Source: an uncultured Alphaproteobacteria bacterium (GTDB taxonomy: Bacteria; Pseudomonadota; Alphaproteobacteria; UBA7887). From it: 44,039 nucleotides of DNA. A model generated the notes under the pieces. The model ran no database searches and had not been told where the DNA came from. It saw only the letters and a program-made list of their open reading frames with translations. The translations under genes and the position numbers were made by a program. The stretch covers positions 1-44,039 of the forward strand of contig CACETT010000007.1 of NCBI GenBank assembly GCA_902562525.1, read 5' to 3'. This document shows positions 28,371 through 35,701 of this stretch, one piece after another. How positions within the stretch are numbered: the stretch's first letter is position 1; each line of letters begins with the position of its first letter.

Positions 28371-28772
28371 TTAGTTATTGCACGCGCTGCTTCGGCAAAG
28401 TTTATAGTTCCGCAAGTGCCCAAGGGCGATCATAGCTGCACCTATAAGTGTTAGAACTTGTTCGCCTCTTTCCCCAAGAGCGGAGTGACCAAAAGTTGCA
28501 GCAAGGATTAGAGAAGTTAGGCCAGCAAGCCCTATTACCGCAACCATAACATCCCTATGTCGTCGGCAACCTAAAGAAAGAGCCACTAAACTTAGCGGTA
28601 TGACTAACCACAATAACAACACGTGAAATAGTTCCTCCCCAAACAATGTTGTGCCCAATGCAGGAAAAAATCCCAGAAAAATTGGGAGGCAAAGGCAATG
28701 AATTGCACAGAAGGTAGATGTTGATACAGCTAATTTATCTAGTAAAGAAATGTGACGTGCCAGTGATATCAT
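28371..28772 (-). CDS. MerC-domain membrane protein
   Basis: LDKLAVSTSTFCAIHCLCLPIFLGFFP...LFHVLLLWLVIPLSLVALSLGCRRHRD; Cys-containing TM segments typical of MerC. Confidence 0.85.
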   Translation of the reverse strand: MISLARHISLLDKLAVSTSTFCAIHCLCLPIFLGFFPALGTTLFGEELFHVLLLWLVIPLSLVALSLGCRRHRDVMVAVIGLAGLTSLILAATFGHSALGERGEQVLTLIGAAMIALGHLRNYKLCRSSACNN

Positions 28773-28851: not shown

Positions 28852-29616
28852 TCAAGATGCTTTGGTCGTAGTTTTCATATTTCGCATAATTATAGCTAAA
28901 AGGGTAATCACCGCATATGACACGACAGTTACAGGGCCTGATGGCGCATCCAAAACTATTGCCGTGATACTTCCAGTAATTACAGATAAGAGCCCGCATA
29001 TCCAGGCGGTTGCATGGGGATATCGTGTATTAAGTGCAGCCAAAGCGGGGAGTATAAGACTGGCAAATACGACGTAGACCCCAACCATTTGTACCGAAGA
29101 GGTGATTGCTATAGCAAAAATAATGTAAAACTTAATGCCATTCCGGACGGTGGGTTTTAGGAACCAGACAAGCAATATAATTGCATACACAGGGGCGTGT
29201 AATCCTATCTCTCTCCAGGTGACAAATAGCATCTGACCTGAAAGGAGATGCTGAATTTCTTGGCCACCACTAGGATGATCAGTTAAAAATAAAATGGCTA
29301 GTGATGCTGCTAATACAAAAGAAACTCCGATAAGGGCCTCTTGCTGAGCAGGGGCGAGAATCTCAGCTTTACTGAATAATAAACCTGCCAACAAAGCGCA
29401 ACTTAGAGCTATTGCCTGGCTCACAAATAAAGATGGTTCGGTAAGGAATATTGCGGCGACCACAAGGCCAAGCCCAGCAATTTGGGCTACGGCCAGGTCA
29501 ATGAATATGATGCCGCGCCTTAGTACTTCTATTCCTAAAGGCGCGTGTATCAAGGAAACCATGAGACCGACAGCTAAAGCCGGTCCCACAATGCTTATCA
29601 TCTCGCTACTGATCAA
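28852..29616 (-). CDS. Metal (zinc-type) ABC transporter permease, ZnuB-like
   Basis: ABC-3 family pattern (HAPLGIEVLRRGIIFIDLAVAQIAGLGL; LFVTWREIGLHAPVYAIILLVW; VQMVGVYVVFASLILPALAA); overlaps the binding protein gene. Confidence 0.88.
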   Translation of the reverse strand: MISSEMISIVGPALAVGLMVSLIHAPLGIEVLRRGIIFIDLAVAQIAGLGLVVAAIFLTEPSLFVSQAIALSCALLAGLLFSKAEILAPAQQEALIGVSFVLAASLAILFLTDHPSGGQEIQHLLSGQMLFVTWREIGLHAPVYAIILLVWFLKPTVRNGIKFYIIFAIAITSSVQMVGVYVVFASLILPALAALNTRYPHATAWICGLLSVITGSITAIVLDAPSGPVTVVSYAVITLLAIIMRNMKTTTKAS

Positions 29617-30514
29617 CTACCGCGCCGATTAGAAGAGCGAGGGAGCGGTCGAAGAGGCTAAACAAATCGATGGTATCTCCGTCTCCACCAATAGTGTAAG
29701 GCAAGGCCAGGGGAGGTGTGCCGCTTTTTTTCGATAGCCAGTCACTTGCATCTGCGGGATCGTAGGGGGTTCGAATAATTATATCAGCAGGATCACTGTC
29801 AAGTTGTTGCAGTAACTTCTCCAAATGTAAACTAGTGGGCGGAATTCCTGGTTTGGGCTCCAATGAGCCAACTTGGTTGAGGCCTAACCATTTGATCAAA
29901 TAGCTAAAGGACTTATGGTGCACTACAACTGCAGATCCTTTAAGAAAATATGATTCTTGTTCCCATTGAGTTATTGCTTTCTGCCACCGAGTTTTAAAGT
30001 CAAGCAGACGCTCTTTAAAAATTTTTGAGTTGTTGGGGTTTATTGCTTCTAAGCGCTTTGCCAACTCATCTGCTATTAACAGTATATTGTGTGGGTTGAG
30101 GTGGATGTGAGGGTTTCCTTCTGGGTGCAGGTCTCCCATACTTCGATCAATTGCTGTCGGTTTCTCTATGATTGGTACATACTCGGACGTCATCAAGTGG
30201 CCAACAGCACCGGGTTGCACAGCTGCTCCGGCTTTTTGCACTAAAATTGGAAGCCATCCAACTTCCAACCCAGCGCCCGAACAGATTATTAAGTCAGCCC
30301 TTCGTGCCTTAGCAATAAGGCTTGGGCGTGCACGAATAAAATGCGGATTCTGCTTGGCATGAGTGGCAGAAAAGCTTTGTACTTTATCACCGCCAAGTTC
30401 CTGTGCTAGAGCAGCCCATTCTGGTTCACAAGCAAAGACATTGATCTCGGCTTGTGCAGTGAGTGAGGTCATGAAGAATGACCCCACCACAGCTACAAAA
30501 AATATTTTTAACAT
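29606..30514 (-). CDS. Metal (zinc-type) ABC transporter substrate-binding protein, ZnuA-like
   Basis: Signal peptide; EINVFACEPEWAALAQELGGDKVQSFSATHAKQNPHFIRARPSLIAKARRADLIICSGAGLE; His-containing motifs NPHIHLNPHN and VVHHKSF. Confidence 0.9.
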   Translation of the reverse strand: MLKIFFVAVVGSFFMTSLTAQAEINVFACEPEWAALAQELGGDKVQSFSATHAKQNPHFIRARPSLIAKARRADLIICSGAGLEVGWLPILVQKAGAAVQPGAVGHLMTSEYVPIIEKPTAIDRSMGDLHPEGNPHIHLNPHNILLIADELAKRLEAINPNNSKIFKERLLDFKTRWQKAITQWEQESYFLKGSAVVVHHKSFSYLIKWLGLNQVGSLEPKPGIPPTSLHLEKLLQQLDSDPADIIIRTPYDPADASDWLSKKSGTPPLALPYTIGGDGDTIDLFSLFDRSLALLIGAVVDQ

Positions 30515-30522
30515 TGGTTTGC

Positions 30523-31767
30523 TTAGTACTTGTGGGCGCCGTGCGCACCAATGCTCATTACGTACTGAAGGATAAATTGGTTATCATTTAGTCCTCTAGT
30601 GAGTTTTTCGTGATTGTACTGCAAACGAATTCGACTAAATTCGCTGTTAGTCCAGTCCATCATAGCAGCATACGCCTTTGGGTTGTGCCCACCCGCATCC
30701 AGTGTGCTGCCGGCCAAACCAGCAGGAACGTTTGGTGCGCTCATATCAGAGTAGCGGGCGCCAATGCGCCACTGTTGGTTAAACTTATATACGGCTTGAG
30801 CGTACCAACCCTTAGAGGAGCCCGAAAAATTAACAGCCCCTGTAGCTGAGCCTGTATCTTGATAGGTTCCAGACTCATCGCGGTGAAAATATTCACCTTG
30901 AAGGGTCACTTCCTGAGCATTGGGGTTACCGGTTGGGGCCAACGTGTAACGGAAATCAGCAACAAGGAGATCCGAATCCCCAATAAATGTAACCGCATCT
31001 TCGTTGCTTGTGCGTCCCCCTGTTGGGTTTCCCGAAAGCATATAGCCTCCTATGCGCCAACTTTGGTTCAGGCCAATATCGCCGCCAATACGAGCAAATG
31101 CAGACCACTGGCGAAATAGTTCCCCATCACCACCGCCTAGTGGGAAATCGTCTCCACGGAATGACCCGCCACCAACCTCAGCGTATATATCGGTTGGCAA
31201 AATGTAAGAGAATTCTATGCCATCATCATTGAATGCTTTGTTGAGAAACACACGATAGGGAAGTGGGCGATCGGCAAAATCATCTGCATGGGCGTGGTGC
31301 TCGTTCAGATATCCCAGTGTCCAAAATGCCCGCCCCATTTTGGCGGCAAGACCAGTAGGTAGACCAGAGCCAGGCAGGGTTAGTCCATATGCTTCTTCCA
31401 GCTCCACTATGTCTGAGCCATCCTCGCGGACAATAGCAGCTGTTATACTGCCATAAAATTTGTCATCTACGCTGGCAGAAAAATTAATCTCTGACTCATC
31501 GATCTGAATTCCTTCGCGGCTACGTTCCCCTTCTTCTTCAACGCCAAATCCAGCAAACTCTGAGGTTGCGGCCGAGAATTCAGTCAATTTACCGTTGAGA
31601 ACTATTCCAACTGAAGGATTGAATTGGTTATCATAAATTGCTCTGGTTTTGACGGGGCTTGCGGGCGATGTTCCTTCGCTAGTTGCATGATCATCTGCCT
31701 TCGAAAATCCCATATTCCAGGTTAAAGTAGCTGCTGCGAAAGCAGCTATCAAATATTTGGTAAGCAT
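30523..31767 (-). CDS. Putative outer-membrane beta-barrel protein linked to zinc uptake (start preferred at 31767)
   Basis: Signal peptide MLTKYLIAAFAAATLTWNMGFSKAD; alternating barrel-like strands; HEHHAHADDF-like His motif (NEHHAHADDFADRPLPYR); 8 bp upstream of the znuA-like gene. Confidence 0.75.
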   Translation of the reverse strand: MLTKYLIAAFAAATLTWNMGFSKADDHATSEGTSPASPVKTRAIYDNQFNPSVGIVLNGKLTEFSAATSEFAGFGVEEEGERSREGIQIDESEINFSASVDDKFYGSITAAIVREDGSDIVELEEAYGLTLPGSGLPTGLAAKMGRAFWTLGYLNEHHAHADDFADRPLPYRVFLNKAFNDDGIEFSYILPTDIYAEVGGGSFRGDDFPLGGGDGELFRQWSAFARIGGDIGLNQSWRIGGYMLSGNPTGGRTSNEDAVTFIGDSDLLVADFRYTLAPTGNPNAQEVTLQGEYFHRDESGTYQDTGSATGAVNFSGSSKGWYAQAVYKFNQQWRIGARYSDMSAPNVPAGLAGSTLDAGGHNPKAYAAMMDWTNSEFSRIRLQYNHEKLTRGLNDNQFILQYVMSIGAHGAHKY

Positions 31768-31827
31768 TTTTGTCCCTTCTTTTATTTGTTGGCATCCAAA
31801 ACGCGCAAGAATGCGGAGTGTTGTCAC

Positions 31828-31902: not shown

Positions 31903-32421
31903 CTACGTTGCGGCTCTTGAACATGAGGAACAAAGTCCCTCTGACTCCATTACCAACCCCTCCATTCGGAAATTGGCAGCGCGGGCAATCCCACCTAGGG
32001 AGGTTTTGGCTGCATCCAGGGTTGTTTCAGCTACCGAACTGCATGTGCGACAAATTAGGAAAGCAGGGCTATGTTCTTTCGTCGGATGGGTGCAGGAAAT
32101 AAATGCGTTGAGCCGTTCAACCTTATGGGCTAGGCCGTGTTTCGTAAGGAACTCAAGTGCCCTGTATGCCAAGGGGGGTTGAGAGCCAAAGCCATTTTCC
32201 CGCAGTCGCTCCAGTATAGCGTACGCGCCAATGGCACGGTGTTCTTGTGCTAAGATTTCCAAGACTTTCCGACGAATTGGGGTGAAACGCAATTTTGCAT
32301 TTTTACAATATGCCTCTGCTGTGTTAATTGCGTCATCAATGCAATGGGCATGTTCATGCTCCTTAAGAGCAACAGGAGTGATGCCTACAGTAACGTTTTC
32401 CGAGGTCTTTTTTTTTGGCAT
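31903..32421 (-). CDS. zur: Fur-family transcriptional regulator, Zur-like
   Basis: RFTPIRRKVLEILAQEHRAIGAYAILERLRENGFGSQPPLAYRALEFLTKHGLAHKVERLNAFISC, CRTC and CSSC motifs; position in a zinc locus. Confidence 0.9.
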   Translation of the reverse strand: MPKKKTSENVTVGITPVALKEHEHAHCIDDAINTAEAYCKNAKLRFTPIRRKVLEILAQEHRAIGAYAILERLRENGFGSQPPLAYRALEFLTKHGLAHKVERLNAFISCTHPTKEHSPAFLICRTCSSVAETTLDAAKTSLGGIARAANFRMEGLVMESEGLCSSCSRAAT

Positions 32422-32454: not shown

Positions 32455-32471
32455 ATGTTATAATGTAACAT
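32455..32471. promoter_or_regulatory. Putative Zur box in the zur / zrgA-like divergent intergenic region
   Basis: ATGTTA-TAATG-TAACAT: perfect 6-bp inverted arms, close to the known proteobacterial Zur operator form ATGTTATANTATAACAT. Confidence 0.8.
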
Positions 32472-32491: not shown

Positions 32492-33169
32492 ATGTCAAAT
32501 ATATTGATTTCCTCCCCCGTAACGCTTGGGCTTCGGAACGGACTGTTATTGGGAGTATTTTTTAATGCTGTTGTCTCGAGCTCGGCGGCTTTTGCCGAGG
32601 AAACGCGCCAGCTGGACAGCCATGAACACGGTGTCGGAGAGCTTAACATAGCAGTAGATGGAAGCACCGTTGCTATCGAACTCCACGCTCCAGGTGCTGA
32701 TATAGTAGGTTTTGAATATGTCGCCAAGAGTTTTGACGATCGACTTACTGTAAAAAAAGCCCTGAAAAGTCTTTCTCATCCACTCGAGTTATTTCTCCTT
32801 CCCGACCCCGCTGAGTGTAGAGTGACGGAGGCTGAGGCTCATCTCGAAACTGAGGGGGTCCACGACGATCATGCGGATCACGACGATCATGCGGATCACG
32901 ACGATCATGCGGATCACGACGATCATGCGGATCACGACGATCATGCGGATCACGACGATCATGCGGAAGGCCCTGTGCATAGTGAATTTCACGCTACCTA
33001 CACGCTAGTCTGTAATAATTTGAGTGCTCTTACAGAGATTACATTTGCGTATTTTGATGCGTTTGAGAATGCGCTTGAATTGGAGGTGCAACTCCTAACA
33101 GCGTCTGGTGCGCAGGCCTTTGAAGTAAAGCGTGGTAAACCCGAGCTTGACCTTCGTGGAATGTTCTAA
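32492..33169 (+). CDS. ZrgA-like (DUF2796) His/Asp-rich periplasmic protein (start preferred at 32492)
   Basis: Signal peptide; QLDSHEHGVGELNIAVDGSTVAIELHAPGADIVGFEY; central (HDDHAD)n tract; C-terminal FEVKRGKPELDLRG. Confidence 0.88.
   Translation: MSNILISSPVTLGLRNGLLLGVFFNAVVSSSAAFAEETRQLDSHEHGVGELNIAVDGSTVAIELHAPGADIVGFEYVAKSFDDRLTVKKALKSLSHPLELFLLPDPAECRVTEAEAHLETEGVHDDHADHDDHADHDDHADHDDHADHDDHADHDDHAEGPVHSEFHATYTLVCNNLSALTEITFAYFDAFENALELEVQLLTASGAQAFEVKRGKPELDLRGMF
32861..32967 (+). repeat. Six tandem copies of the 18-bp unit CACGACGATCATGCGGAT encoding HDDHAD
   Basis: Units start at 32861, 32879, 32897, 32915, 32933 and 32951; only the end of the last copy differs (GAA instead of GAT). 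Confidence 0.98.
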
Positions 33170-33171
33170 TT

Positions 33172-33870
33172 TTGTCTGACGCCTCCATTATTAAGTTAAA
33201 TGATGTTCGGTTTCGTTGGCCGGGGTGGCCGCCCTTTTCCATTTCTGTGGATAAGTTGTCGGTGCGGGAAGGAGAAAAGATCCTCCTCTTAGGAGAGAGT
33301 GGCTCTGGTAAGTCAACTCTATTGTCTCTCATCTGTGCCACTCTTCTTGCAGATAGTGGAACGGTAGTGATTGGTGGTACAGAAATAAAGACGCTATCAG
33401 GTTGGGCTCGTGATAGATTTCGAGCAGAACAGATAGGTGTGATCTTTCAGCAATTCAATCTACTGCCATTTGGTTCGGTATTAGACAACATTCTCTTGCC
33501 ACTAAGATTTGCGCCGATACGTCGAAGGAATTGCAATGATGCCCCGCGGAAAGTTGTCGAGCTTTGCAAAGACCTAGGGCTGCCGGATAATGTTGAAACT
33601 ACAAAGGCGGCAAATCTAAGCGTAGGGCAACAACAGCGTGTGGCGGTGGCCCGTGCCCTGATTGGCCAGCCGCCCATCCTTATTGCTGACGAACCCACGT
33701 CTTCATTGGATGAAGCGAACCAAGATAATTTCCTAGACGTGCTTTTTGAGCAGGTTCGCGTCTACAATTCCACACTGTTAATGGTCAGCCATAATCCGCG
33801 CTTATCTGAAGGGTTTGATAGGGTTCTTCACATGTCGGAGATCGTGAATGTCGAGAGGGCGGTAGTATGA
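33172..33870 (+). CDS. ABC transporter ATP-binding protein, LolD/MacB-like (ZrgB-like), TTG start
   Basis: Walker A GESGSGKST, signature LSVGQQQR, Walker B ILIADEPTSSLDE. Confidence 0.9.
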   Translation: MSDASIIKLNDVRFRWPGWPPFSISVDKLSVREGEKILLLGESGSGKSTLLSLICATLLADSGTVVIGGTEIKTLSGWARDRFRAEQIGVIFQQFNLLPFGSVLDNILLPLRFAPIRRRNCNDAPRKVVELCKDLGLPDNVETTKAANLSVGQQQRVAVARALIGQPPILIADEPTSSLDEANQDNFLDVLFEQVRVYNSTLLMVSHNPRLSEGFDRVLHMSEIVNVERAVV

Positions 33871-35117
33871 TCTTTCGGCTTGTTGTTGGCTCTCTTATGG
33901 CACGGGGTGTTACAGTAGGTATGACGGTTCTCTCAATAGGGTTGTCCGTTGCGTTATTTCTTGGCGTAGATAAGGTAAAGACCGGAGCAAAGGCCAGTTT
34001 CTCAGATACTATTTCGGGAACCGATCTTATCGTTGGCGCGCGTTCGGGGTCGGTTCAACTACTTCTCTATTCTGTATTTCGTATTGGCAATGCGACCAAC
34101 AACGTAACTTGGGAAAGTTACCTAGACTTGAGGGCTAGACCTGAAGTGGAATGGATAGTGCCTATTTCCCTTGGCGATAGTCACCGCCAGTTTCGGGTCA
34201 TGGGGACCAATGTGGCTTTCTTTGAACATTACAAATACCGCCAGGGGAGAGCTTTAACGTTCCAAGATGGTATGGTTATGGAAGATCTCTTCGATGCAGT
34301 CATAGGGCACGATGTCGCCAAAGTTCTGGGTTACGCCGTCGATGATCCAATTGTTGTAGCACATGGTCTTGCCTCTTTTACCGAGCACAAGGATCAGCCC
34401 TTCCGCGTTTCCGGTATTCTGGAGAAGACCGGTACTCCTGTGGACCGAACTGTGATTGTTGCCATGGAGGCAATTGAGGCAATCCATGTCGATTGGAAAG
34501 GGGGAGCTAAAATCCCTGGGCAGACGACCCCGGTTGAGGTAATTCGCCAGATGGACCTAACTCCGGGTGCTATAACAGCCGCACTTGTTGGTGTGGAGAG
34601 CAGGTTGCAAACATTTAGTCTTCAGCGTGCTATTAATCAATATCCAGAGGAGCCATTGCTGGCAATCCTACCAGGCGTTGCATTGCAGGAGTTGTGGGGA
34701 ATAGTTGGCATTGCGGAGAGCGCTCTTCTGGCAGTTTCCGTAATGGTTGTTATTACGGCATTGATTGGAATGATGGCTACCGTTTTTTCTAGTTTAAATA
34801 CCCGTCGCAGGGAAATGGCAATCTTTCGTGCGATGGGTGCCAGCCCTGTCGCTATCTTCGGGCTTTTGGTTTTGGAAGCAATTCTTACAACTGCAGCTGG
34901 TTCGTTACTGGGATTGGGGTTCTTGTATGTTGGCCTATTTATTGCCCAACCGATGATTGATAGTGCGTTTGGTTTGTTTCTACCTATTCAGGCTCCGGCT
35001 GGGCGGGAGATGCTTGTTTTATTTGCCGTTATTGTAGCTGGGGCGGCTGTTAGCCTAATTCCTGCCCTACGTGCCTATCGCCTTTCCTTGGCCGATGGTA
35101 TGATGGTGAGGACATGA
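33867..35117 (+). CDS. FtsX-like ABC permease (ZrgC-like)
   Basis: MacB-type N-terminal TM and periplasmic domain, three C-terminal TMs with MMATVFSSLNTRRREMAIFRAMGASPVAIFGLLVLEA; overlaps the ATPase gene. Confidence 0.9.
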   Translation: MIFRLVVGSLMARGVTVGMTVLSIGLSVALFLGVDKVKTGAKASFSDTISGTDLIVGARSGSVQLLLYSVFRIGNATNNVTWESYLDLRARPEVEWIVPISLGDSHRQFRVMGTNVAFFEHYKYRQGRALTFQDGMVMEDLFDAVIGHDVAKVLGYAVDDPIVVAHGLASFTEHKDQPFRVSGILEKTGTPVDRTVIVAMEAIEAIHVDWKGGAKIPGQTTPVEVIRQMDLTPGAITAALVGVESRLQTFSLQRAINQYPEEPLLAILPGVALQELWGIVGIAESALLAVSVMVVITALIGMMATVFSSLNTRRREMAIFRAMGASPVAIFGLLVLEAILTTAAGSLLGLGFLYVGLFIAQPMIDSAFGLFLPIQAPAGREMLVLFAVIVAGAAVSLIPALRAYRLSLADGMMVRT

Positions 35118-35701
35118 ACGATCTTACACAAAGAAAATGGCTAGCTCTGTTATTGTTTTGTCTTGTTATTCCGCAGGCACTTCAAGCCGCCCCTCCATTG
35201 GAGATTTCGTGGGATGATCTTATACCGCCGGGTGTGCCCTATGCGGAGATCATCGGAGAAGGGGACCTCGATATCGAGAACGATTATTGGCGCAATCCGG
35301 TCTACGATGCTAACGCTACTAAGTTGAATGAGGAATTGGATGGTGCATATATCCGGATCCCAGGCTTTATTATTCCTCTTGAACTTGAGGCGACAGGGGT
35401 AACGGAGTTTGTTCTCGTTCCATATCTTGGTGCTTGCATACACGTGCCGCCTCCACCGCCAAATCAATTAGTGTTTGTGCGCACTACCACCCCGTGGCCA
35501 AGCGACGATCTATGGAGCCCCGTTTGGGTAATTGGAAAGATGAGTACAGAATTGATGACTACAGAGGTTGCCGAGACAGGTTATGCATTGCAGGCAGAGA
35601 ACATTGAGGTTTACGAATGGGAATCAGGAGCCTTGCCGAGGGCACAAAAACCGTTTTTGGTGCTCTTAAAGGATTTGATGAAGTTTGCCAAAGGTGACTG
35701 A
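35114..35701 (+). CDS. DUF3299 exported protein (ZrgD-like)
   Basis: Signal peptide; ISWDDLIPPGVPYAEI...LDGAYIRIPGFIIPLELEATGVTEFVLVPYLGACIHVPPPPPNQLVFV; overlaps the permease gene. Confidence 0.88.
   Translation: MNDLTQRKWLALLLFCLVIPQALQAAPPLEISWDDLIPPGVPYAEIIGEGDLDIENDYWRNPVYDANATKLNEELDGAYIRIPGFIIPLELEATGVTEFVLVPYLGACIHVPPPPPNQLVFVRTTTPWPSDDLWSPVWVIGKMSTELMTTEVAETGYALQAENIEVYEWESGALPRAQKPFLVLLKDLMKFAKGD

Follow-up and report, generated by a model that had tools for sequence, protein, structure and literature searches.

The array analyzed here lies in a 44,039-nt window (the whole stretch of DNA under study), inside the first gene of an operon with the order zrgA, ATPase, permease and DUF3299 protein, in which neighboring genes overlap or nearly do so (Table 1). 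The last of these corresponds to zrgE, which is a DUF3299 gene in V. parahaemolyticus (PMC9817125). A Fur-family gene is divergent from zrgA, and genes for a ZnuA-like protein and a ZnuB-like permease complete what is, taken together, a zinc-uptake locus. Searches at the genus, family and order level recovered zrgA only in one congener (L051) and one further family member, and the congener retains the gene order of the window at this locus.

Table 1. Features of the zinc-uptake locus, in window coordinates.
Feature	Position	Strand	Basis or remark
ZnuB-like ABC-3 permease	28852..29616	-	PF00950 4.3e-16
ZnuA-like zinc-binding protein (classical zinc SBP)	29606..30514	-	PF01297 3.1e-33
Porin-like outer-membrane protein candidate, between znuA and zur	30523-31827	-	
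Zur-like Fur-family repressor, divergent from zrgA	31903..32421	-	PF01475 3e-6; Zur NF008646 1.6e-30
Zur-box-like palindrome TGTTATAATGTAACA, in the zur-zrgA intergenic region	32456..32470	.	Likeness to published Zur sites
zrgA, periplasmic zinc-binding protein, 225 aa, N-terminal signal peptide expected	32492..33169	+	PF10986, NF047873, PDB, fold
Six tandem 18-bp units, CACGACGATCATGCGGAT	32861..32968	+	Last unit ends GAA; core of ZrgA His-rich loop
zrgC-like MacB/LolD-type ABC ATPase	33172..33870	+	PF00005 1.5e-31
zrgB-like FtsX/MacB-type permease	33867..35117	+	PF02687, PF12704
zrgE-like DUF3299 protein	35114..35701	+	PF11736 9.4e-40

The top NCBIfam match of the Fur-family gene is Zur (NF008646), under the cut-off of that model. 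The palindrome TGTTATAATGTAACA is a putative Zur site by its resemblance to published ones, and TGTTATAATATAACA stands at the same place in the congener. The divergent Zur-like gene and the palindrome conserved in the congener suggest that the zrg operon may be repressed by Zur and induced by zinc starvation. An alternative, longer start for zrgA (32450) lies upstream of the Zur-box-like site; the congener shares the start at 32492. The porin-like candidate gave no Pfam or NCBIfam match and is kept in the congener, as is a MerC-family membrane protein (28371-28772; PF03203, 1.5e-28) that adjoins znuB and is possibly part of the zinc locus. The znuB-like and znuA-like genes (28852-30514) have no adjacent znuC ATPase gene in the window genome or the congener. 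No ABC ATPase of the window genome scores above the curated ZnuC cut-off (many match below it), and none in either genome exceeds the curated AztA cut-off.

By sequence and predicted fold, the array-bearing gene is zrgA, a member of an already characterized zinc-uptake family. Its product matches Pfam PF10986 (2.7e-48; 164 bits against a cut-off of 27.4) and the NCBIfam equivalog NF047873 (203 bits, above the curated cut-off of 185), and its nearest solved relatives by sequence are PA4063 (PDB 7ahw, 9e-21) and V. cholerae ZrgA (8ezw, 3e-17). An AlphaFold model based on 26 homologues, with a mean pLDDT of 80.5, adopts the ferredoxin-like ZrgA fold, matching 8f1b, 8ezw and 7bgo with by-target TM scores of 0.86-0.91 and E values down to 3.5e-15. 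As family profiles, PDB matches and fold all point to ZrgA, a novel zinc-buffer protein is ruled out. In V. cholerae ZrgA, H35, H37, E66 and H184 form the conserved zinc site (PMC9820375), and alignment and spacing place its counterparts at H44, H46, E75 and H163. Among 60 homologues (counts that leave out L081, described below), H44 and H46 are conserved in 59, E75 in 59 and H163 in all 60, as are both members of the cysteine pair, C109 and C174.

The window ZrgA thus shares family, fold, site-1 residues and the cysteine pair with V. cholerae ZrgA (PDB 8ezw, 8f1b; zrgABCDE), and both proteins place a disordered loop rich in His, Asp and Glu before the fourth site-1 histidine. In both organisms, genes for the ATPase, the permease and ZrgE (DUF3299) adjoin zrgA. 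Unlike zrgABCDE, however, the window operon has no visible zrgD-like ORF, its zur-like gene is adjacent and divergent, and its loop is encoded by an almost perfect 18-bp DNA array. PA4063 of P. aeruginosa (PDB 7ahw, 7amx, 7bgo; PA4063-PA4066) has family and fold in common with the window protein (Foldseek E 5.6e-15), and its site b is site 1 of ZrgA, whereas its His-rich loop is shorter and less regular. ZnuA, of the cluster A-I zinc SBPs, likewise carries an unstructured, variable, His-rich loop near its zinc site, but its fold is unrelated to that of ZrgA (the ZnuA-like protein of the zinc locus is encoded by a separate gene), so the His-rich loops are likely convergent.

Scanned from end to end with Tandem Repeats Finder, the window shows a single tandem array (32861-32967; period 18, 5.9 copies, 100% matches). 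A pattern search returned five perfect copies of CACGACGATCATGCGGAT and a sixth (32951-32968, ending GCGGAA) that departs from them only at the final base; this change at 32968 converts GAT to GAA and thereby Asp to Glu. The exact copy number comes from one assembly, a draft genome estimated to be 63% complete. The array is in frame and encodes HDDHAD five times followed by HDDHAE, contributing 12 His across residues 124-159 of ZrgA. The array pattern did not occur in any of 100 dinucleotide shuffles, which rules out chance as its source. Nor was its 18-base self-similarity reached in any of 10,000 synonymous-codon randomizations, whether the tract's own codons or those of the operon were used; repetition purely at the protein level is therefore ruled out as well, selection on the protein pattern being insufficient, and the DNA itself has been duplicated.

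The congener provides a direct comparison. Its ZrgA is 80% identical to the window protein and contains an array of four copies of a different unit, AHDDHG, of which the three full copies all read CACGACGATCATGGGGCC. Each full congener unit differs from every full window unit at the same three positions, and the array flanks are 85-88% identical between the genomes (311/366 and 175/198). Units thus resemble others of their own genome more closely than those of the other genome, which is the mark of concerted replacement. The initial annotation had described six near-perfect 18-bp repeats at 32861-32967 that encode an HDDHAD tract with 12 His and had probably expanded or been homogenized recently. 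The repeats and the tract are confirmed by the pattern search and the in-frame translation, and the history is supported by the congener, whose different unit has been homogenized within its own array. A search of plasmid DNA for a close copy returned only distant Phaeobacter ZrgA matches.

In the protein, the array lies between the two cysteines and ends four residues before H163, within a Cys-to-Cys stretch of 66 residues that includes 15 His. The literature describes a disordered, His-rich loop as a hallmark of ZrgA, and the tract is this loop; its mean pLDDT is 55-62 (in blocks covering residues 121-160) compared with 92-98 in the core, as expected for disorder. ZrgA of V. cholerae can bind as many as 10 Zn, of which 4-5, mostly weakly bound, are owed to the loop; with the loop deleted, the protein still sustains growth of a znuA-deleted strain when zinc is limiting (PMC9820375). 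The loop is thus not essential in V. cholerae, the one species in which its removal has been tested. The initial proposal of a flexible, metal-binding segment agrees, by homology, with the extra zinc bound by the V. cholerae loop (PMC9820375) and with the low pLDDT.

The loops of ZrgA homologues were compared with synonymous shuffles. Tested at periods that are multiples of three, 10 of the 53 loops with 36 residues or more (about a fifth) were more repetitive in DNA at p ≤ 0.01, where approximately 0.5 would be expected; no loop gave a strong score at any other period. Some homologues have only 27-32 residues between the cysteines, with almost no His, so certain lineages can do without the loop. 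One further sequence that entered the loop set, L081, carries approximately 16 DDH repeats followed by SGHDDHGHAHGEF, is not ZrgA-like and lacks cysteines where the aligned stretch begins and ends. It may represent the loop of a different zinc-binding protein, which suggests similar repeat growth in unrelated zinc proteins.

Variation between strains was assessed in Phaeobacter, in which ZrgA is encoded on large plasmids. Among 19 strains compared, loop length varies in frame within species, and all of the zrgA indels fall within the loop. Over 657 bp, P. inhibens P66 and P92 show no substitutions and differ by a 15-bp in-frame deletion, which lies between GCACAC direct repeats of the kind that slippage would leave. 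Other length differences amount to 12 bp in P. inhibens, 33 bp in P. gallaeciensis and 75 bp in P. piscinae. These alleles support a loop length that varies between strains in the ZrgA family; as the Phaeobacter loops are not perfect arrays, their variation serves as an analogy for the window array. Fast turnover and variable length of the loop are thus supported in relatives.

We consider it highly probable that the array encodes the loop of a ZrgA that operates in Zur-controlled uptake, that this loop holds zinc weakly without being strictly needed, and that it turns over quickly in frame. ZrgA would be the periplasmic zinc-binding protein of a ZrgABCDE-type system; zinc binding by the window loop and control by Zur are predicted by homology. 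The 12 repeat His and the neighboring Asp would most likely hold several zinc ions weakly and so raise the local supply beside the high-affinity site (H44, H46, E75, H163), a contribution that transport would not strictly require. The DNA repeats would arise and be replaced through in-frame slippage or recombination and, with loop sequence and length under weak constraint, unit and copy number would change quickly.

The alternative that survives best, though we judge it rather unlikely, is that the array is selectively neutral filler, produced by slippage in a little-constrained loop whose richness in His and Asp was inherited from an ancestral loop, and that the frame is kept only because a frameshift would ruin the gene. 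The tolerance of V. cholerae to loop deletion (PMC9820375) is consistent with this, as are the wide differences in unit, period and length among relatives and the short loops of some homologues, which hold 2-3 His. However, most of the independently rebuilt loops remain rich in His and Asp/Glu (L009, with (NEH)n, L029, L035, L060 and the congener), whereas pure drift should lose His in many loops; a few do show such a loss (L065 with 3 His, L077 with 1).

A less probable alternative casts ZrgA as a regulator of another transporter: it would sense or chaperone zinc in the periplasm, with the loop as a readout of zinc abundance, in line with the proposal for PA4063. The transporter genes of the window favor such a role, as the MacB/FtsX type to which they belong is more familiar among exporters and extractors. 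Precedent is provided by PA4063 itself, which binds two zinc ions with micromolar affinity and has been proposed to be a chaperone or sensor (PMC8561739), but zinc acquisition through the operon requires zrgA in V. cholerae, where the protein has sub-nanomolar to nanomolar sites (PMC9820375), making this reading improbable for the window protein. That copy number is an adaptive dial, with strains gaining or losing units and so tuning zinc buffering to zinc supply, a possibility raised in the initial annotation, is very unlikely: copy number does differ between the congeners (6 versus 4) and loop length is polymorphic within Phaeobacter species, but no link of copy number to zinc supply or fitness was found, and ZrgA still sustains growth of V. 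cholerae when its loop is removed (PMC9820375). We regard as extremely doubtful the related notion that the loop behaves like a contingency repeat, varying in frame, with zinc supply selecting its copy number; if true, it would give bacteria a heritable, quickly reset zinc-holding capacity.

The ZrgA family and its variable His-rich loop are already known; what is new here is evolutionary data on the turnover of that loop and an unusually clean repeat. The loop has been repeatedly rebuilt in DNA, yet it is rich in His and Asp in most homologues, which bears on what His-rich loops do in zinc-binding proteins. Culturable Phaeobacter strains carry natural in-frame length alleles, one pair of them otherwise identical in zrgA, and thereby offer a ready means to ask if loop length matters.
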